Source of the DNA: a virus
Reading direction: 5' to 3' (one strand)
Length of the DNA: 25,808 nucleotides
Virus record (IMG/VR): IMGVR_UViG_3300045996_001022
Coordinates: 1 to 25,808 of that record
Shown here: one piece after another, positions 2,832-16,378 of the stretch
Position numbering within the stretch: the stretch's first letter is position 1
How the letters are laid out: every line of letters begins with the position of its first letter
Translations under genes and position numbers: made by a program
Notes under the pieces: generated by a model
What the model was told of the DNA's origin: nothing
Seen by the model: the letters and a program-made list of their open reading frames with translations, nothing else
Databases searched by the model: none

Positions 2832-3394
2832 GGGGGTGGACCCTGACCCCGGAGCTGCTCGCGCGGGAGAGCAAATCCCCGCTGGAGCGGACGCCGCTGA
2901 CCGTGAATGTGGCGCGAGAGAGAGCTTCGGAGAAGCTGACCGCGCTGCGTGAGGCGTGCGTTCCTAGTGTCGACGTTGAGCAGCCCGGCCTCCGCGTGCT
3001 CGCGGACTTCACGGTCGAGGGACCGCCCCAAGCATGGCAGCGCGCCCAACCGACGCGCGAGGGCCGCATGGTCGTCCCGAAGAAGACCCGCGAGTTCGAG
3101 AAGCGCGTCGCGGCTTACGGAAGGCTCGCGGCAGGCCCTGAACCTTACCGCGGCCCGGTAGCGCTGACCGTCACATTCTACTTGAAGCGCGGCAAGAACT
3201 GCCCGCCGGGACTTTTGATGCCGGCACACCAGAGCTGTGGCGATATTTCAAACTTCATCAAGAGCCTGGAGGATGGGCTCAACGGCGTGCTCTGGTATGA
3301 CGACCGGCAGGTGGTGTCGGTGAGTGCGCGGAAAGTGTTTGCGGACTTGGCGGGCGGTGAGCCTCGCACTCACGTTTCGGTGGAAATGCTATGA
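2828..3394 (+). CDS. RusA-family Holliday junction resolvase
   Basis: Cuts four-way DNA junctions during phage recombination or before packaging. 188 residues from the GTG at 2828 (GTGA overlap). The RusA signature lies at 139-160: GDISNFIKSLEDGLNGVLW followed by YDDRQV, with acidic and basic residues D139, K145, D149, D158 and D159 in the spacing expected of the family (D-x2-N-x2-K-x3-D-x8-DD-x-QV). A basic loop (KKTREFEKRV, 85-94) and strands 110-120 also match. RusA proteins are usually about 120 residues; this one has roughly 55 additional N-terminal residues, either a real extension or a sign that translation starts further downstream. The stop overlaps the next ATG. Confidence 0.85.
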   Translation: MRGWTLTPELLARESKSPLERTPLTVNVARERASEKLTALREACVPSVDVEQPGLRVLADFTVEGPPQAWQRAQPTREGRMVVPKKTREFEKRVAAYGRLAAGPEPYRGPVALTVTFYLKRGKNCPPGLLMPAHQSCGDISNFIKSLEDGLNGVLWYDDRQVVSVSARKVFADLAGGEPRTHVSVEML

Positions 3395-5521: not shown

Positions 5522-5560
5522 TGCCAGTTTCCTAGGTTACGGGCCTGCACGAGGCGTGAC

Positions 5561-5764
5561 ATGACCCCCGACCCCCGCGCCATCCCCCTGACCCGCCACG
5601 CCCGCGCTTCGTGGCTCTGCGAGAAGGCCGAGGATTGCGTCCGCCAGGCGGATGAGGCCAAGGCTGTCGGCAAGGAAGGCGAGGCGATGGCGTTCCTGGC
5701 GCTGGCCCAGGAGTACCGCAGGACGGCCAACCTTCGGGCCGTCGAGGAGGCCGCGGATGGCTGA
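5561..5764 (+). CDS. Small hypothetical helical protein
   Basis: 67 residues, ATG at 5561. It is almost wholly helical and charged (ASWLCEKAEDCVRQADEAKAVG). The middle resembles the small TPR-like or Y-x-x-L repeat-like helices of many phage accessory proteins. The first 25 bases from the base before the start (MTPDPRAI) are nearly identical to the start of the gene at 11770, although the proteins then diverge. The next gene begins eight bases before its stop. Function unknown. Confidence 0.6.
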   Translation: MTPDPRAIPLTRHARASWLCEKAEDCVRQADEAKAVGKEGEAMAFLALAQEYRRTANLRAVEEAADG

Positions 5765-8172: not shown

Positions 8173-9126
8173 ATGAGCCAACGCTACGGTACCATCCACG
8201 CCAAGTTTTGGGACGACGAAAAGGTCCAGGCATGGCCGGACAACGTGCTTCGAGGCGCCGTCTACTGGCTGACCTGCAAGCACATGACCATCGCGGGCGT
8301 CGCGAAAATCCCGCTGGCCTACATGGCGGCCGATCTCGGCAAGTCCGAGAAGGAGTGCCGGACCATCATGGACAGGCTCGGACACGATAAATTCGTGTCC
8401 TACGACGAAAAAACCGGCTGGGGCGTGGTCGTGAAGCGCCTTGTGTACGATCCGCCGAAAAATCCGGCCTCGTTCCGGGGCGTGCTGGCCGTCCTTGAGG
8501 ACGTGCCACGGTGGCATGACGGTCTCAAGACCATCTATCCGCTCCTGGAGGAGCTTTCTACCCGTCATGGGACAGTGTTACCATTCTCCCGACAGGATAT
8601 CGAGACTGTCCCGAGACAATCTCGGGATGGTATGCCGCATCCGCATCCGCATCCGCAGCCTAATAATATGTCCACGCCGGACGACGGCGCGGACGAGTCT
8701 GATCCGCCGTTCGATGTCGAAGCTGGTTTCCGTGAGTTCTACGCGGCCTATCCCCGGAAGGTGAAACCGGAGCGGGCCAAGAGGGTCTATCTGCGCGTCG
8801 TCCGCCGGGTGCCGCACGAGCGCATCATGGCCGGGGTCCATCGAAGTCGGCGGAAATGGGACGCGGCCGGGACCGAGCAGCAGTTCATCCCGCATCCGTC
8901 AAGCTGGCTTGAGGCTGGTTCATACGACGACGAGGACGACCTATTCCGGCCTCCCACAGGCAAGGCCCAGACGATGAATGGCCACGGGGTGGACCCCATG
9001 CGAGCGGCCCGCGCGAAAGCTCGCGAGACCCTGAAGGCCGAAGGTCACGACCAATTCGCGGACGGCTTTGGCCTGCTGGTCGAAGCCCGCGCACAGGAAA
9101 TCTACCATGCCCGCTACGCTGCATAG
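8173..9126 (+). CDS. Replication initiator / helicase-loader-like protein
   Basis: 317 residues from the ATG at 8173. The N-terminal part (1-130) reads as a winged-helix domain of phage replication proteins (GTIHAKFWDDEKVQAW, then PLAYMAADLGKSEKECRTIMDRLG, then GVVVKRL). A flexible linker (about 140-180) contains the HPHPHPQP run. The C-terminal domain has the signature FREFYAAYPRKVKPERAKRV followed by FIPHPSSWLEAGSY, typical of helicase-loader or DnaD-like C-terminal domains (F-x-x-x-YPRK ... FIPxPxxWL). It directly precedes, and overlaps by 20 bases, a DnaB-like helicase, as expected for a loader/helicase pair. The linker-coding DNA holds origin-like repeats. Confidence 0.75.
   Translation: MSQRYGTIHAKFWDDEKVQAWPDNVLRGAVYWLTCKHMTIAGVAKIPLAYMAADLGKSEKECRTIMDRLGHDKFVSYDEKTGWGVVVKRLVYDPPKNPASFRGVLAVLEDVPRWHDGLKTIYPLLEELSTRHGTVLPFSRQDIETVPRQSRDGMPHPHPHPQPNNMSTPDDGADESDPPFDVEAGFREFYAAYPRKVKPERAKRVYLRVVRRVPHERIMAGVHRSRRKWDAAGTEQQFIPHPSSWLEAGSYDDEDDLFRPPTGKAQTMNGHGVDPMRAARAKARETLKAEGHDQFADGFGLLVEARAQEIYHARYAA
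8609..8669 (+). repeat. Origin-like repeats inside the initiator gene
   Basis: An 8-bp perfect hairpin (TCCCGAGA 8609-8616, loop CAA, TCTCGGGA 8620-8627) is followed by tandem hexamers GCATCC at 8637, 8643 and 8649 and a variant GCAGCC at 8655. A short A/T-only tract TAATAATAT (8661-8669) comes next, conspicuous in this G/C-rich region. Iterons plus an A/T-rich tract inside the initiator gene is the arrangement of the lambda origin in gene O. The hexamers also encode the HPHPHPQP linker, so coding alone could explain them. Confidence 0.4.
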
Positions 9127-10423
9127 GTTTCCGCCCACTGGGCGCGAACCACCGCTCGTTCCGCTGCACAACGTTGAGGCGGAGCAGGCCATTCTCGGCG
9201 CCACGATGGTGAACAACGCCGTCGTCCGCCGTGCCGAGTTTCTGGACCCGCTCGATTTCTTCGAGCCCATCCATGGCCGCATCTGGGCGCGACTGCGTGC
9301 TGACGCGGAGGCTGGCCGTCGCGCCGACCCCGTGTCGCTCGGCATGTGGTTCGAGACCGAACCCGCGCTCGTGGAGATGGGCGGCCGAAAATATCTGGCC
9401 GAACTGGGCGCGCGTGCCGAGTCGATTGTTAACGCGGTCGAGTATGCCCGCGTGGTCCGGGATGCTGCCCGCCGCCGCAGGCTTGCCGATGCCGCCCGTG
9501 CGCTGGCCGAGCGAGCAGACAGCCGCGCCGACGACGCCGACGCCTCGGTCATTTGGGCCGAGATGAGCGGTGCCATGGAGGCTGCGGCAAAGGACGAGAC
9601 GCGGGCGCTGGGCAAAGACCTATTCCAGATCGCCAGCGACATCACGGACGACATGCTCAACCCGCGGGGCATGTTCTCGACCGGGCTGCCGAAGCTGGAT
9701 GAGTCTATCGGTGGCGGCGTGCCCTACGGCTACGTGGTCGGCTTCGAGGCCCGTCCTGCCGGGTTTAAATCGGGCACGTTGCATACCATCGCGCTCAACG
9801 CGGCGATGTCCGGGGTGACGTGCTGCTACTTCGCTGCTGAGATGGGCGGCAAGCGTCTGACGCAGCGCATCATGGGTCACGTCGGTGAGTTCCAGTCGCA
9901 GAGGTTCCGCTACCCGAAGCCCGCTCTGATCTCGGACGTAGCAGCGCTGACGCCGAAGCTGCCGCGAGAACTAGTCATCGAGGACTGTCCCGGCGTCACG
10001 TTCGCCCAGCTCAAGCATCTGGCGAGCGAGCACCTGACGCGCCGCAAGTGCCAAGTGTTTTTCCTGGACTACTACCAGCTCGTGTCGCCGGTCGGCCGCT
10101 GCGAGAGCCGGAGTCAGCACCTCGAAGACGTGGCCTACTGGATTCAGAGCTTCGCCGCGAAGCACGACACGACGTGGTTCATCGCCAGCCAGCAGAACCG
10201 AGACGGTCACACGCTAGGCAGCGATGGGCTGATGCGCGCATGTGACTGGCTGGGCCGCATCCACAAGGAAGAGACGAAATTCCTCCACCCGCGGCTGGGC
10301 GCGGTGACCACAATCTGGATGGACGTGGCGAAGGCGCGCGACGGCATGGGCGACCCCATAGGGGAGACGGACCAGCCCGCGTTTTTCATCAGTCCACACG
10401 GCCCTCACCTGGCGGAGCTGTAG
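9107..10423 (+). CDS. DnaB-like replicative helicase with an altered Walker A
   Basis: 438 residues from the ATG at 9107. It is expected to unwind DNA at the phage fork. The N-terminal DnaB domain is visible (PLHNVEAEQAILGATM at 19-34, DFFEPIHGRIW at 50-60). The linker helices are at 115-165. The RecA-like domain begins with STGLPKLDESIGGGVPYG. The P-loop reads FEARPAGFKSG (213-223) where DnaB proteins have ARPSMGKT: the glycine before the lysine is Phe220. Walker B is VFFLDYYQLV (317-326) and the sensor loop is ASQQNRDG (360-367). The usual RDGPTG-type end is replaced by RDGMGDP and the protein finishes in the repeated tail GPHLAEL. It follows the loader gene. Confidence 0.8.
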   Translation: MPATLHRFPPTGREPPLVPLHNVEAEQAILGATMVNNAVVRRAEFLDPLDFFEPIHGRIWARLRADAEAGRRADPVSLGMWFETEPALVEMGGRKYLAELGARAESIVNAVEYARVVRDAARRRRLADAARALAERADSRADDADASVIWAEMSGAMEAAAKDETRALGKDLFQIASDITDDMLNPRGMFSTGLPKLDESIGGGVPYGYVVGFEARPAGFKSGTLHTIALNAAMSGVTCCYFAAEMGGKRLTQRIMGHVGEFQSQRFRYPKPALISDVAALTPKLPRELVIEDCPGVTFAQLKHLASEHLTRRKCQVFFLDYYQLVSPVGRCESRSQHLEDVAYWIQSFAAKHDTTWFIASQQNRDGHTLGSDGLMRACDWLGRIHKEETKFLHPRLGAVTTIWMDVAKARDGMGDPIGETDQPAFFISPHGPHLAEL

Positions 10424-10428
10424 ACATG
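10400..10428 (+). repeat. Gene-junction repeat copy 1 (helicase end / HTH gene start)
   Basis: 29 bases in register with four other copies: it encodes GPHLAEL, the TAG stop, an SD (GGAG, 8 bases before the start) and the ATG at 10426. Core CTGGCGGAGCTG. It matches copy 3 at 28 of 29 positions. Confidence 0.85.
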
Positions 10429-10737
10429 GACGAGCCTATCCTGATTGGCGAGCACCTTCGCGATGCGCTTGAGGCGCGGGGCTGGAGCACAGCCGAACTG
10501 GCTCGACGCATGGGCGGCGATGACCCGAAGCTCGACCAGCTAGCCGTCGAACTGCTCATCAACGCACCCAACCCGGCGGTGTTCATGGACACTGATACCG
10601 CGCGCCGGATGGAGAGGGCGTTTGGCCTGTCGGATGGGTTCCTAACCCGCCTCGACCAACTCTGTCGGCATCAAGCCGGGTGGCAAGTGTCTATTGAGGA
10701 CGCCCGGAAAGGCGGCCCACACTTGGCGGAGCTGTAG
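10426..10737 (+). CDS. XRE/HigA-like helix-turn-helix regulator
   Basis: 103 residues, ATG at 10426 given by the junction repeat. LIGEHLRDALEARGWSTAELARRMGGD is a classic XRE helix-turn-helix (positions 6-33). The following DTDTARRMERAFGLSDGFLTRLDQL (about 56-80) matches the second half of the domain in HigA-type antitoxin proteins. There is no toxin gene of recognisable type directly upstream or downstream, so a phage repressor or regulator is more likely than an addiction module. The C-terminus ends in GGPHLAEL, unrelated to the HTH family and shared with the helicase and two later proteins. Likely autoregulation is an inference. Confidence 0.75.
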   Translation: MDEPILIGEHLRDALEARGWSTAELARRMGGDDPKLDQLAVELLINAPNPAVFMDTDTARRMERAFGLSDGFLTRLDQLCRHQAGWQVSIEDARKGGPHLAEL

Positions 10738-10742
10738 CCATG
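10714..10742 (+). repeat. Gene-junction repeat copy 2
   Basis: 29 bases: GPHLAEL codons, TAG, SD GGAG and the ATG at 10740. It differs from copy 1 at three positions, two of them synonymous inside the coding part and one after the stop. Confidence 0.85.
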
Positions 10743-10985
10743 ACTATCGACATCTTCTGCGACTGGGACGATGACGACCGCCTCTATGAGGACCCCCCGC
10801 TGTATCCGCCCGGCAAGCTCGCCAGCATGTCCCTCGCTGAGCTTGAGCGCGAGTTAGACCGCCAGTGCGACCGCCAAGGCTGGCTTGGCGAAGCTGAATA
10901 CATCAACGACCGCGCGGTTGAAGAAACCGAAGCCCGATGCCGGCTCGTTGAGGCGGAAATCAGGTCCAGGAGTGCAGCGGCATGA
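10740..10985 (+). CDS. Small acidic hypothetical protein
   Basis: 81 residues. The start ATG at 10740 is supplied by junction repeat copy 2. The first 20 residues are strongly acidic and aromatic (IDIFCDWDDDDRLYEDPP); the rest is helical with charged heptads (LAELERELDRQCDRQ, VEETEARCRLVEAEIRSR), so a short coiled coil is likely. An acidic start followed by a coiled coil recalls small phage inhibitor or DNA-mimic proteins, but I recognise no family. Its stop overlaps the ATG of a nine-codon frame (10982). Confidence 0.6.
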   Translation: MTIDIFCDWDDDDRLYEDPPLYPPGKLASMSLAELERELDRQCDRQGWLGEAEYINDRAVEETEARCRLVEAEIRSRSAAA

Positions 10986-11011
10986 CCGGCTCTCACCTGG
11001 CGGAGCTGTAG
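10982..11011 (+). CDS. Nine-codon mini-frame MTGSHLAEL carrying the repeated tail
   Basis: ATG at 10982 overlaps the previous stop as ATGA, and the frame reads MTGSHLAEL then TAG at 11009-11011. This keeps the repeat in the same translational frame as the other copies although no full gene precedes it. It could be a leader peptide coupling translation to the gene at 11014, or the scar of a deleted cassette whose start and tail were joined. Whether a peptide accumulates is unknown. Confidence 0.4.
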   Translation: MTGSHLAEL

Positions 11012-11016
11012 ACATG
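10988..11016 (+). repeat. Gene-junction repeat copy 3
   Basis: 29 bases: GSHLAEL codons, TAG, SD GGAG and the ATG at 11014. A single C-to-T difference from copy 1 changes Pro to Ser. It is located in a mini-frame rather than at the end of a full gene. Confidence 0.85.
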
Positions 11017-11256
11017 GGCACTGGTCTGCAACGCGCTTACGCCGCCACTCACGGGCTGGAGCTGGGCGCGACTTATCGGGCCAAGGGCTGGAGGGCTCAG
11101 ACCCGAACCCTGCTGGAGGTCGACCAGACCCGCAGGGGGACGGCGATGGCGCTGTATCAAGCAGCGAACGGCGCGCGGCATTGGCAGAAGCTGGCAACAT
11201 TCGCGAAGTGGGCCAAGGCGGCCGAGCGCGTCGGCCCACACCTGGCGGAGCTGTGA
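11014..11256 (+). CDS. Small hypothetical protein, paralogue of the gene at 11259
   Basis: 80 residues from the ATG at 11014, set by junction repeat copy 3; the same frame is open upstream but the repeat gives the SD. The product has LELGATYRAKG near 16-26, a beta-rich middle (RTLLEVDQTRRGTAMALYQ), an aromatic segment (HWQKLATFAKWAKAAER) and the tail VGPHLAEL. It shares GATYR-x-K, a similar strand plan, a W-A-x-x-x-E-R element and the tail with the next protein, so the two arose by duplication. The size and strand pattern suggest a compact SH3/OB-like fold; this is a guess. Function unknown. Confidence 0.6.
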   Translation: MGTGLQRAYAATHGLELGATYRAKGWRAQTRTLLEVDQTRRGTAMALYQAANGARHWQKLATFAKWAKAAERVGPHLAEL

Positions 11257-11261
11257 GCATG
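11233..11261 (+). repeat. Gene-junction repeat copy 4
   Basis: 29 bases: GPHLAEL codons, a TGA stop instead of TAG, SD GGAG and the ATG at 11259. It differs from copy 1 at four positions, three of them in the stop and spacer. Confidence 0.85.
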
Positions 11262-11516
11262 AGCGAGAAGGTCGAGTGCCGCTTTCGGACGTTCGAGGTC
11301 GGAGCGACTTACCGGCCAAAGAACCCCCGCTCCCGATACGGGGCGAGAATCTTCCTGGGTGTTTCGCGGAGCCAGGGGCGAGGGTGGTTTGACTACCAGC
11401 CGGCCGTCGCTCCCAACGGCTGCCGCTACCCCATTACGGTTCAGTCATGGCTCCGCTGGGCCGGCGAGCGGCTGGAGACGCCGAACCCCAACGGCCCCCA
11501 CCTGACGGAGCTTTAG
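11259..11516 (+). CDS. Small hypothetical protein, paralogue of the gene at 11014
   Basis: 85 residues, start set by junction repeat copy 4. It begins with MSEKVECRFRTFEVGATYRP, then has alternating strands (ARIFLGVSRSQGRGWFDYQP), an aromatic stretch (ITVQSWLRWAGERLE) and the tail NGPHLTEL. The shared GATYR and W-A-x-E-R elements with the previous protein show a tandem duplication followed by divergence. No metal site or catalytic motif. Probably part of a set of small accessory proteins swapped as cassettes. Confidence 0.6.
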   Translation: MSEKVECRFRTFEVGATYRPKNPRSRYGARIFLGVSRSQGRGWFDYQPAVAPNGCRYPITVQSWLRWAGERLETPNPNGPHLTEL

Positions 11517-11521
11517 CTATG
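11493..11521 (+). repeat. Gene-junction repeat copy 5 (most diverged)
   Basis: 29 bases: GPHLTEL codons, TAG, SD GGAG and the ATG at 11519. It differs from copy 1 at five positions: one makes Ala to Thr, two are synonymous, two follow the stop. The GGAG and the frame are kept. Confidence 0.8.
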
Positions 11522-11773
11522 GCCCCCGAAATCCGCACCCACGCCGGCCGCTCGTTCGGCGTCGGCACCGTGGCCGACATGAAGCCGCTCACGCCCGAGC
11601 AGCACGAGGACATGATGCTGTGCTGGCGCGCGATGTGCGCCGCGACTGAGGCCGGGCACAGCTACGCCGATGCGGTGGAAGCGGGCAATCGGGCGACCAA
11701 GCACGGCCTTTGGGTGGGGCGCATGCTCGACGCTGAGACGGCCGAGTTTGAGTTGCGGGAGCGCGAGCCATGA
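11519..11773 (+). CDS. Small hypothetical protein, last gene of the junction-repeat cluster
   Basis: 84 residues, start set by junction repeat copy 5. Residues 26-60 (LTPEQHEDMMLCWRAMCAATEAG, then HSYADAVEAGNRATKHGLWVGRML) are helical. This is the first gene in the series whose own end lacks the HLAEL tail, so the cassette series stops here. Its stop overlaps the next ATG (ATGA). Family and function not recognised. Confidence 0.6.
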   Translation: MAPEIRTHAGRSFGVGTVADMKPLTPEQHEDMMLCWRAMCAATEAGHSYADAVEAGNRATKHGLWVGRMLDAETAEFELREREP

Positions 11774-12018
11774 CCCCCGACCCCACCGCCATCGCACGCC
11801 ACCGCGAGGCTTTGCGCCGCGTGGTCGTGGAGCATCCCGAGCTGACCGTGCAGGACGCCTACCGGCTGGCGGACAAGGTGCTGGAGGCGGAGGAGGAACA
11901 CGACAGCCACGAATGCCGTCACTGCGGGGAGCCGCTGAACGAGGTCGGTCCCGACCAGGAGTTCACGGTCCTCTGCTGGGAGTGCGGCGACATGCTGGCG
12001 AAGGAACTGGACGCATGA
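11770..12018 (+). CDS. Small zinc-ribbon protein
   Basis: 82 residues, ATG at 11770 (ATGA). Residues 1-45 are helical (VQDAYRLADKVLEAEEEHDSH). Residues 49-72 form a zinc ribbon: CRHCGEPL, then LCWECGDML, i.e. C-x2-C, about 17 residues, C-x2-C. The first bases (MTPDPTAI) are nearly the same as the start of the gene at 5561, a second example of a shared start region between unrelated genes. Small zinc ribbons in phages often act as adaptors binding RNA polymerase or nucleic acid, but nothing in the sequence proves it here. The stop overlaps the next ATG. Confidence 0.6.
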   Translation: MTPDPTAIARHREALRRVVVEHPELTVQDAYRLADKVLEAEEEHDSHECRHCGEPLNEVGPDQEFTVLCWECGDMLAKELDA

Positions 12019-12407
12019 GCCGCCAAGACCTTCGTGCCCACGCCGTGTGGCAGCGGGAGAGCGAGAGGGTGGCCGAGGAGCGGGCTCTGCCCCGCCAGTT
12101 CGACCCCGAACGGGAGCTGCGGGTCGAGGTCGCGCGGCTGACGAAGGAGCTGGAGGCGGCGCGGCGGGCGAGTGAGCGGAGGGCTGCCTTCGCGCGGTTC
12201 GCGGCTCTCCACGAAGCAACCACGGTGGTTCTGGGCGAGAAGCTGGGGCTAATTCCCTACAAGGGCATCATGAGCAAGAACGCCAAGGTTCGGGCCGAGG
12301 CCGAGTTTCGCATCCGCTGCATCCAGGACCATGTTGGCCGCATCGCGCGGTCCATTCGAGCCCTCGCCCCACCCGGCGCACGGCAGGGGGAGGACGCGGG
12401 TGGCTGA
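12015..12407 (+). CDS. Coiled-coil hypothetical protein, member of a local mosaic family
   Basis: 130 residues from the ATG at 12015 (ATGA overlap). Residues 20-65 are strongly heptad-like (EELVRE-type, including ELRVEVARLTKELEAARRA), indicating a coiled coil. The middle (about 65-110) is mixed, with VLGEKLGLIPYKG. The end is PPGARQGEDAGG. A 28-base exact DNA match ties residues ELRVEVARLT (12116-12143) to the next gene (12597-12624), and its C-terminal Gly-rich junction DNA is also echoed there. Function unknown; part of a locally duplicated set. Confidence 0.6.
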   Translation: MSRQDLRAHAVWQRESERVAEERALPRQFDPERELRVEVARLTKELEAARRASERRAAFARFAALHEATTVVLGEKLGLIPYKGIMSKNAKVRAEAEFRIRCIQDHVGRIARSIRALAPPGARQGEDAGG

Positions 12408-12867
12408 CGGGGGGCTGCGGGAGCGGGTGGCGCGCATCATTGACCCGGATGCGTGGGAGAGGCGAGCGAGCCTGTTGCGCGAGATGGCAGCCCACGACGA
12501 TCGGCCGGGGCTGGCATGCCTTGCCGACAAGGCGGTGGAGGACAGCCTCGCCAAGGCTGAGGCTGTTATCGCCGCCAGCGATGCTTGGGACGGTGGGCTG
12601 CGGGTCGAGGTCGCGCGGCTGACGGCGGAGAACGAGCGGCTACGGGCGACGCTGTCCAACCTCGTTTGGCTGAAGGACCACAAGGACCGGAACGGCAAGG
12701 ACTCCGTCTACCGGACCGTCCAGCCGGCTGCATGGGCCGCGGCCCTCGCCGTCCTTGCCCAGCCCGGTGCACGGGAGGGGGAGGGCTGGGTCGAGGGTGA
12801 GGACTCGTTTGTCGGCCCGGCTGCGGAGTGGAAGCCGAAGCCGCAGGGGGATGCGGAGGGTGGCTGA
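12400..12867 (+). CDS. Mosaic hypothetical protein combining parts of both neighbours
   Basis: 155 residues. The GTG at 12400 overlaps the previous stop by eight bases. The N-terminus VADGGLRERVARI and the middle AVIAASDAWDG are paralogous to the next protein (VADQELRERVAWAI, AAIAACDAWDG). The following LRVEVARLTAENERLRA is a DNA-identical copy of part of the previous gene. The end (QPGAREGEGW ... GDAEGG) again echoes the previous gene's tail. It therefore looks like a chimera made by recombination between tandem paralogues. Helical, with a short coiled coil in the second half. No enzyme motif. Confidence 0.55.
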   Translation: MADGGLRERVARIIDPDAWERRASLLREMAAHDDRPGLACLADKAVEDSLAKAEAVIAASDAWDGGLRVEVARLTAENERLRATLSNLVWLKDHKDRNGKDSVYRTVQPAAWAAALAVLAQPGAREGEGWVEGEDSFVGPAAEWKPKPQGDAEGG

Positions 12868-13294
12868 CCAGGAACTGCGCGAGCGAGTGGCGTGGGCGAT
12901 TGGGGAGGCGCTAACCGGCGCGTTGGGGGCCGGAGTCGAGGTGCAACTGGTATGGCCTGAGATGGCCGCCTCGCATGGCGAGGAGGGGCGCCCACGCGCC
13001 AACATCTCAACGGCCGCACTGGGCGAGGTCGCGGCCGACGCCGCCATCGCGGCCTGTGACGCCTGGGACGGCGAGCAGCGGCTTGCGGCCCACGAGCACA
13101 TGGTCAGCAACGCCAAGAATGCCCCGCTAGGATGGCGCCAGAGGCTCAAGAACGCGCTGGGATCTCTTGGGCGGTCTTTCGGGCCACCGGAAACGGAATC
13201 GCGCTTGGCGGGGCCTCCGCGGCCCAGCAAAAGCGCACGGCAATCTGCCGTACAGAACGGAACTTTGTCGCGCCCTGTGGATAAGAGGCTATGA
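12860..13294 (+). CDS. Hypothetical protein, paralogue of the gene at 12400
   Basis: 144 residues. The GTG at 12860 overlaps the previous stop by eight bases, at a DNA junction (GAGGGTGGCTGAC) nearly identical to that at 12400. LRERVAWAIGEAL and ADAAIAACDAWDG are the shared elements. The C-terminal 45 residues are basic and Pro/Ser-rich, probably disordered. A perfect DnaA-box 9-mer (TGTGGATAA, 13276-13284) lies in the last codons. The stop overlaps the next ATG. Function unknown. Confidence 0.55.
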   Translation: MADQELRERVAWAIGEALTGALGAGVEVQLVWPEMAASHGEEGRPRANISTAALGEVAADAAIAACDAWDGEQRLAAHEHMVSNAKNAPLGWRQRLKNALGSLGRSFGPPETESRLAGPPRPSKSARQSAVQNGTLSRPVDKRL

Positions 13295-13744: not shown

Positions 13745-14385
13745 CCGACCACATGGCCGAGGCGGCGCTGGTGGCTCAGGCGCTGGGCGCTGAGCTTGTG
13801 GCCGCCGACCGCATGGTTGAGTTCCGGTGGCCCGCTCAGCATTGCAACAGCCTAATGGTCCCTGACCCTCGTGGCATGTGGCCTGCGCTCGTCGCCCTCG
13901 CCCGCCGCGTCCGGGAGGCCGAGCAGGAGCTTAGTGAACTGAGGCAAGCGGCAGAGGCGTGTACGGCTTGGGTCGATCGGGATGAGCTTCTCCGTCGTCT
14001 GATGGCGCTGGATGACGTGCTCCGCGGGGCCGAGCAGGAGCGGGATGAGCTGCGCGACTGTGTCCGCGGGCTGGAGGAGGCGCTGTTCCTCGCAGTGGGG
14101 CGGGCGCCCGATGGGTCGCCTGCTGTCCGTGGCACAGGTCCCTCCGGTTGTATGGCGGTCGAGCCTGCGGACCACCTGACGAGAGGGTATGCGGAGCAGA
14201 AGGCTGAGCTTGACCGACGCTTCGAGGCGGCCAGAAAATTCGCCATGACGCTGGGCGAACCGCCCGTGCCCGAGCCCGCCTACGACCCGCCAGAACGCTG
14301 CTGCGACGGGGTGGCCAGCGTGCCGGTGCGCGAGTGGTGGGACGAGGCAGGCGAAGGGCTCAGGCGGGCGGAGAGGAGCTTCTGA
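13741..14385 (+). CDS. Coiled-coil hypothetical protein
   Basis: 214 residues, ATG at 13741 (ATGA). Residues 50-120 are long charged helices with heptads (ALARRVREAEQELSELRQA, VLRGAEQERDELRDCVRGLEE). Residues 135-155 are Gly/Pro-rich; 160-180 contain a further helix (GYAEQKAELDRRFEAARKF). The N-terminal 40 residues (ALVAQALGAELVAADRMVEFRWP) may form a small separate domain. The stop overlaps the next start (TGATG). No recognised family; a structural or scaffold-type accessory role is possible. Confidence 0.55.
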   Translation: MTDHMAEAALVAQALGAELVAADRMVEFRWPAQHCNSLMVPDPRGMWPALVALARRVREAEQELSELRQAAEACTAWVDRDELLRRLMALDDVLRGAEQERDELRDCVRGLEEALFLAVGRAPDGSPAVRGTGPSGCMAVEPADHLTRGYAEQKAELDRRFEAARKFAMTLGEPPVPEPAYDPPERCCDGVASVPVREWWDEAGEGLRRAERSF

Positions 14386-15765: not shown

Positions 15766-16342
15766 CGTGGAGTTGGGTCAAGGCGGAACACGCGACTTAG
15801 AATATGCCAAGGCATACGAAAGGCTTCGGTATGAGCACGCCTTTATTGCTCAGGTGGCTGAATTGATGGGGTTGGTTGGGGTTATCCAGGCCAACGCCGA
15901 CGGCTGCGTTCATGTCGATGACCTGCCGTCCATGCAGCCGGGCGAGGTTGTGCTGATCCGCAAGAAAGCTCAGTTCTGCAACGTCGAGGTGTGCGCTGGC
16001 GTGTCATCCCATCCTGATGACCAGCCCATCCTTCCCGGTTTCATCACCGCACTGCCGCCTACCAACATCATCGCCACCGGCGGTCCGCACGTCTACGCCC
16101 ACCCCGCGTCCATCTACCCGCTGCCCGTCGTCACGCCCCCGCCCGTGGACTCATGGGTCGGCACCGACGCGGACGGCTACGTGTCGGAGAAGCTCAGCGC
16201 CCGCATCATGCCAGTCGGTGACAAGTGGTGGGTGCAGTTGGGCGGCGAGTGGCTCAGCGAGTACGGCGGCGTCGTCGAGTTCCCCTCCGCCCGCATGGCG
16301 CGGGAGCAGGTCGAGCGGCGGCGGGAAGCGGAGCGGGGCTGA
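15752..16342 (+). CDS. Hypothetical phage protein
   Basis: 196 residues from the ATG at 15752 (a GTG at 15746 is also possible); ggag lies about 15 bases upstream. Residues 15-45 are helical, residues 45-140 are Pro/Val-rich beta-type sequence, and the last 55 (WVGTDADGYVSEKLSARIMP, then WWVQLGGEWLSEYGGVVEF) form an aromatic beta-domain plus a basic helix. No recognised family. The gene ends just before a convergent terminator; it is the last gene of the early block. Confidence 0.55.
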   Translation: MLVDSVELGQGGTRDLEYAKAYERLRYEHAFIAQVAELMGLVGVIQANADGCVHVDDLPSMQPGEVVLIRKKAQFCNVEVCAGVSSHPDDQPILPGFITALPPTNIIATGGPHVYAHPASIYPLPVVTPPPVDSWVGTDADGYVSEKLSARIMPVGDKWWVQLGGEWLSEYGGVVEFPSARMAREQVERRREAERG

Positions 16343-16344
16343 AA

Positions 16345-16370
16345 CGAAAACGGCCCCGGTGAGGGGGCCG
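16345..16370 (-). terminator. Intrinsic terminator for the minus-strand genes
   Basis: CGGCCCC (16351-16357) and GGGGCCG (16364-16370) form a 7-bp stem with a 6-base loop. Read on the minus strand the stem is followed by TTTTCGTTT, a proper T tract, just after the stop of the minus-strand gene at 16379. On the plus strand it would act weakly on the gene ending at 16342. Confidence 0.7.
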
Positions 16371-16378
16371 CTCGTGGT

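Follow-up and report, generated by a model that had tools for sequence, protein, structure and literature searches.

A short sequence at the 3′ end of a phage replicative helicase gene recurs five times in close succession, and the resulting array probably arose by serial insertion of four accessory genes between the helicase and its former next gene, through recombination at this short junction. The window (the whole stretch of DNA analyzed, a 25,808-base IMG/VR virus record) comes from a tailed phage whose terminase is of the GpA type and whose portal belongs to the lambda family. Five copies of a 30-nt core, CGGCCCNCACCTGGCGGAGCTGTAGNCATG, border four small genes between the helicase and g84 (Table 1). 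Every copy carries the last codons of one reading frame, followed by a stop codon, an SD sequence, and the ATG of the next gene.

Table 1. Positions of the junction copies, the genes of the array, and the resolvase gene in the window
Feature	Coordinates	Strand	Basis or remark
RusA-family Holliday junction resolvase	2849..3394	+	Pfam RusA 2e-20
DnaB-like replicative helicase, native C-terminus GPHLAEL	9107..10423	+	Pfam DnaB + DnaB_C; PHROG 19; 78% identical to G001 helicase, same end
Junction copy 1 (helicase / HTH)	10399..10428	+	
Putative inserted gene 1, small HTH-like protein ending GPHLAEL	10426..10737	+	Weak HTH_31; without counterpart in G001
Junction copy 2 (HTH / g81)	10713..10742	+	
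Putative inserted gene 2 (g81), no family assigned	10740..10985	+	ORF list; without counterpart in G001
Nine-codon frame MTGSHLAEL carrying the copy 3 tail	10982..11011	+	Sequence; AGGAG upstream; ATGA overlap with g81
Junction copy 3 (mini-frame / par1)	10987..11016	+	1 difference in 30 from copy 1
Putative inserted gene 3 (par1), small protein ending GPHLAEL	11014..11256	+	par2 paralogue
Junction copy 4 (par1 / par2)	11232..11261	+	
Putative inserted gene 4 (par2), ending GPHLTEL	11259..11516	+	par1 paralogue; without counterpart in G001
Junction copy 5 (par2 / g84)	11492..11521	+	
g84, first gene right of the array	11519..11773	+	ORF list; only weakly resembles the gene after the G001 helicase

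Successive copies are separated by 314, 274, 245, and 260 nucleotides, and all five place GGAG 8 nt before the ATG and share the spacing stop-NN-ATG. Across the core, all five copies or four of them agree at every position except in two columns, which correspond to a synonymous third position and a spacer base after the stop codon. From the first base left of the core, and again right of the ATG, agreement is at background, giving the repeat sharp edges. The 30-nt consensus had no match in 100 shuffles of the sequence, and self-comparison of the whole window returned 11 repeat pairs, compared to 0–1 in 30 shuffles. The original prediction of five copies at stop/SD/start junctions was thereby confirmed; it had given the repeat 29 bases from position 10400 and the equivalent positions, and the core is one base longer at the left. 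That every copy closes the preceding gene holds for the helicase, HTH, par1, and par2 but not for copy 3, whose tail sits in the nine-codon frame MTGSHLAEL and not in g81. The latter stops just before copy 3, at an ATGA overlap and in another frame than the tail; profile searches with g81 gave no Pfam/PHROG-type family match. The nine-codon frame could represent a translated leader or what is left of a deleted gene. The near identity of copies 1 and 3 could also reflect gene conversion or selection.

Relatives were sought in IMG/VR and GTDB with the helicase, HTH, and par1/par2 as queries and with DNA patterns, and a single close relative (G001) was recovered. This 57.9-kb record encodes a helicase 78% identical to that of the window, ending HPHGPHLAEL before its stop codon, and the last nine residues of the two proteins are identical. 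A degenerate search of the whole G001 record located one junction copy, at the helicase end; two further hits were not at gene ends. Counterparts of HTH, g81, par1, and par2 were absent from G001 (0 of 4). The single junction at the G001 helicase end, together with the absence of the four genes, indicates that the repeat combines the 3′ end of the helicase gene with the SD and start codon that serve the following gene, and that it was re-used after each of four additional genes. Left of the junction, the helicase matches in both phages; right of it, HTH follows in the window but a different gene follows in G001, placing one short sequence between different flanking genes. The gene behind the G001 helicase shows only a weak likeness to g84 (shuffle p=0.025). 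Support for insertion thus comes from 30-nt, sharp-edged copies between unrelated genes and from a single-copy relative whose helicase ends in the same way and which lacks all of the intervening genes; this supports the earlier suggestion of a seam for exchanging early-gene cassettes. The direction of change, gains in the lineage of the window rather than losses in that of G001, would follow from parsimony, with the helicase as the shared gene.

The array itself appears only in the window among the sequences screened. Phage and plasmid records yielded remote helicases and an Azospirillum HTH homologue, and nothing else. A degenerate SD/stop pattern gave 24 matches in IMG/VR, all single-copy and mostly away from gene ends. 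No other array with at least three in-frame junction copies was found in 66 sequences (581 kb, including the window and G001) and five phage records of 40–50 kb, where matches outside the window were isolated and two-copy only. Intermediates with two to four copies were not seen in the collections searched, which contain one close relative.

The fixed geometry of the copies means that the junction can serve each downstream gene, and coupled translation at the junctions is plausible from this arrangement. The repeat might accordingly be a selected coupling or initiation element, akin to the start-associated sequences (SAS) of mycobacteriophages discussed below, that co-regulates the downstream genes and whose duplication was itself the point. 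Such a device would suit the constancy of GGAG-8-ATG and stop-NN-ATG in all five copies, as well as the mini-frame at copy 3, which restores a terminating ribosome at that junction. Predicted pairing of the repeats with the anti-SD is, however, average for the genome (−5.8 to −7.7 kcal/mol), and the repeats are not stronger SDs than the other junctions of the window. An RNA structural element was ruled out, since no copy folds better than shuffles, and so was a promoter or terminator element, since neither was matched at the repeats. Conserved bases extend 15 nt upstream of the SD, and in G001 the single junction differs in its spacer and has the weaker SD GGAA. A translation device therefore accounts for the tolerance of the copies but not for the 15 alike bases upstream of the SD, and we consider it improbable as the origin of the array. 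A site recognized by a repressor or a site-specific recombinase is much harder still to credit. Its appeal lies in the sharp 30-nt edges of several near-identical copies and in the presence of an HTH gene inside the array, but the copies lie strictly at stop/start junctions, show no inverted symmetry, hairpin, or promoter, and in G001 the one copy is retained solely as part of the helicase gene.

The reading frame of the shared tail is explained largely by the position of the stop codon. All five copies contain a stop codon in the tail frame. Of the other two frames, one stays open through the ATG of the next gene for 88–111 codons, and one is closed within the repeat in copy 5 only. Because the stop codon lies in the tail frame, a gene joined at the left edge of the repeat needs that frame to end properly, and the frame would be kept without any need of peptide function. 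The frame had been described as always maintained; it is maintained in the helicase, HTH, par1, and par2 but not in g81, and thus in three of the four inserted genes (about 0.11 by chance, by our own calculation). Differences among copies had likewise been described as mostly synonymous. The seven codons contain six changes, four synonymous and two replacement, and against an expected synonymous share of 0.33 this excess falls short of significance (P=0.10); once the G001 sequence is included, the synonymous:replacement ratio becomes 5:2 (P=0.045). The synonymous excess would be, at most, a weak signal of selection on the peptide.

These data bear on the hypothesis that GPHLAEL is a functional C-terminal tag, for example, a common docking peptide for the replisome or a host protein, selected on several phage proteins. 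The in-frame tail in four proteins, a variable coding column that is a synonymous third position, the ratio obtained when G001 is included, and the identical helicase ends are all compatible with a tag. The ratio loses significance when G001 is left out, one of the four inserted genes is out of frame, and the DNA of the SD region and most third positions are conserved along with the peptide. Conservation of the tail in homologues, a check named in the original prediction, was found in the G001 helicase. The tail is missing from distant helicases, at 34% identity or less, and from the HTH homologue of Azospirillum phage Cd, which is 36% identical over 76 residues and ends ALAQKEGE. With the tail missing from these proteins, the synonymous excess not significant, and the frame explained by the stop codon, the claim of a selected peptide tag was not sustained, and we give it little credence. 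On the insertion model, HLAEL on HTH, par1, and par2 would be mostly a by-product, or scar, in that the tail frame alone ends inside every copy and another runs into the next ATG.

The two paralogues provide a further test of how the array was built. par1 and par2 are 35% identical (E 7e-9), and their relationship, together with spacings of similar size (245–314), could point to tandem duplication, in which repeated copying of one small gene and its junction behind the helicase was followed by divergence of the bodies past recognition, with the junctions kept. HTH and g81 are, however, unlike each other and unlike par1/par2, and HTH belongs to a separate family with a homologue in another phage. 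In a codon-guided alignment, the par1 and par2 bodies are 50% identical in DNA, compared to 79% for the last eight codons (p=0.008). The tails are thus much more alike than the bodies and have not simply aged with the gene pair. This excess would fit later acquisition, conversion between copies, or junction selection; it is not predicted by simple ageing after a tandem duplication, and the junctions would still require selection or conversion under that scheme. Tandem duplication is consequently judged unlikely, even if slightly less so than a peptide tag or a translation device.

Under the preferred model of serial insertion, each event would have joined a gene at the 30-nt helicase 3′ end/RBS junction, leaving every inserted gene its own copy. 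Insertion, loss, and exchange could proceed by homologous, annealing-type recombination between the short junctions, with partners located within one genome or in co-infecting phages. The junctions would persist because each brings together everything that a hand-over needs (stop codon, GGAG at 8 nt, and start codon), so that a gene landing there would be expressed in the operon at once. The RusA-family resolvase is the sole clear recombination gene among the window proteins tested. No RecT/Erf annealase was identified among the window proteins scanned, which represent part of the gene set of a fragmentary record.

Other seams in these phages show similar behavior, in keeping with the insertion model. 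A second in-frame junction family consists of the tail PGARQGEDAGG (or PQGDAEGG) and its stop codon, overlapping a GTG start in GTGGCTGA; it occurs at 12360–12432 and, in split form, at 12747–12784 and 12843–12892. The N-terminus of the next gene, MADxxLRERVA, is also common to this family, and the PGARQGEDAGG part occurs once in G001, before an unrelated gene. A 44-bp gene-end block at 16333–16376 is 98% identical in G001 (reverse-complement coordinates 14307–14350), where it instead follows a terminase gene, an arrangement that suggests that a module was gained or lost with its borders precisely at gene ends. Both phages thus seem to recombine repeatedly at gene ends. Three additional repeats were observed. 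The start region ATGACCCCCGACCCC (MTPDPxAI) is common to two genes (5554–5584 and 11763–11793; 87% over 31 nt) and is possibly a start-side seam. A 34-nt repeat (94%) encoding LRVEVARLTxE lies inside two neighboring genes for small proteins (12116–12149 and 12597–12630) and looks like domain shuffling. An imperfect inverted repeat at 1147–1206 (61 nt, 79%) has a 75% similar counterpart in G001 (reverse-complement coordinates 1633–1696) and is a possible structured element.

What is understood of how phages acquire small genes while keeping their operons intact comes largely by inference from individual events. This array appears to preserve legible traces of four successive gains at a single site, and their source, the helicase end, is identifiable, which makes junction-guided gene stacking directly testable. 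In-frame copies of the 3′ end of a core gene behind that gene provide a search pattern for recently gained phage genes. A broader proposal is that the 3′ end of a core replication gene acts as a reusable gene socket, offering a stop codon, ribosome site, and start codon to any incoming gene. Such a socket would be re-created whenever a gene is inserted and would let phages pile up accessory genes behind it through short-homology recombination, much as an integron does but with no integrase. This generalization is speculative, and we hold it with far less confidence than the history proposed for the array itself.

Several known systems resemble the array in part. Integron gene cassettes were compared as well, and no copy contains a significant hairpin of the kind expected for an attC-like folded site. 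In T4-type phages, PeSL cassettes place recurring expression signals between small genes and reportedly mediate the shuffling of modules (Arbiol 2010 and Comeau 2014, cited in PMC4503421). Judging by the titles of those papers, PeSLs are promoter-terminator motifs, and the repeat in the window was rejected as a member because it has no promoter match and folds no better than shuffles. The SAS of cluster K mycobacteriophages is a 13-bp sequence, GGGATAGGAGCCC, present in 11–19 copies across the genome, where it places an SD before the starts of unrelated genes (PMC3203893). It resembles the junction in being an SD-containing repeat ahead of unrelated gene starts that at times includes the upstream stop codon (PMC3203893); unlike the SAS, the repeat in the window is coding, lies in a cluster, and derives from the end of a single gene. 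Membership in the SAS family was also rejected, as GGGATAGGAGCCC does not precede starts in the window and gave one two-mismatch hit, which fell inside a gene on the minus strand and agrees with chance expectation. The boundary or linker sequences of lambdoid phages, as summarized in PMC3029335, are conserved short junction sequences at which phages have been proposed to undergo homologous exchange (Susskind & Botstein 1978; Clark et al. 2001). The helicase junction, and likewise the second seam family, shares with them the property of a short gene-junction sequence whose flanking genes differ between related phages. According to that summary, the lambdoid boundaries are shared between genomes at equivalent junctions, whereas here one partly coding junction is present five times in one genome.

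The closest precedent is mycobacteriophage Island3, in which gp68, a protein of 85 residues without homologues, has its last 18 residues and 60 bp in common with gp67 (PMC3029335, section 13, Fig. 5C). Phage Brujita carries a single recombinant copy in place of the Island3 gp67/gp68 pair (PMC3029335). As in the window, a conserved gene is followed by a small gene that lacks homologues and repeats the 3′ end of its neighbor, both in residues and in DNA. As with G001, a relative is single-copy and lacks the inserted gene, a pattern read as recombination between short repeats. The original prediction knew of no repeat combining a peptide tail with an RBS; Island3 supplies a parallel for the duplicated tail and its DNA, and inclusion of the RBS of the next gene is not noted there. 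The kind of event is therefore known from a one-cassette precedent, and the four-fold stacking is unusual, with none elsewhere among the sequences screened here. Where Island3 has one cassette and a shared segment of about 60 bp, the window has four cassettes bounded by 30 bp, and the copied segment takes in the SD and start codon belonging to the gene that follows.
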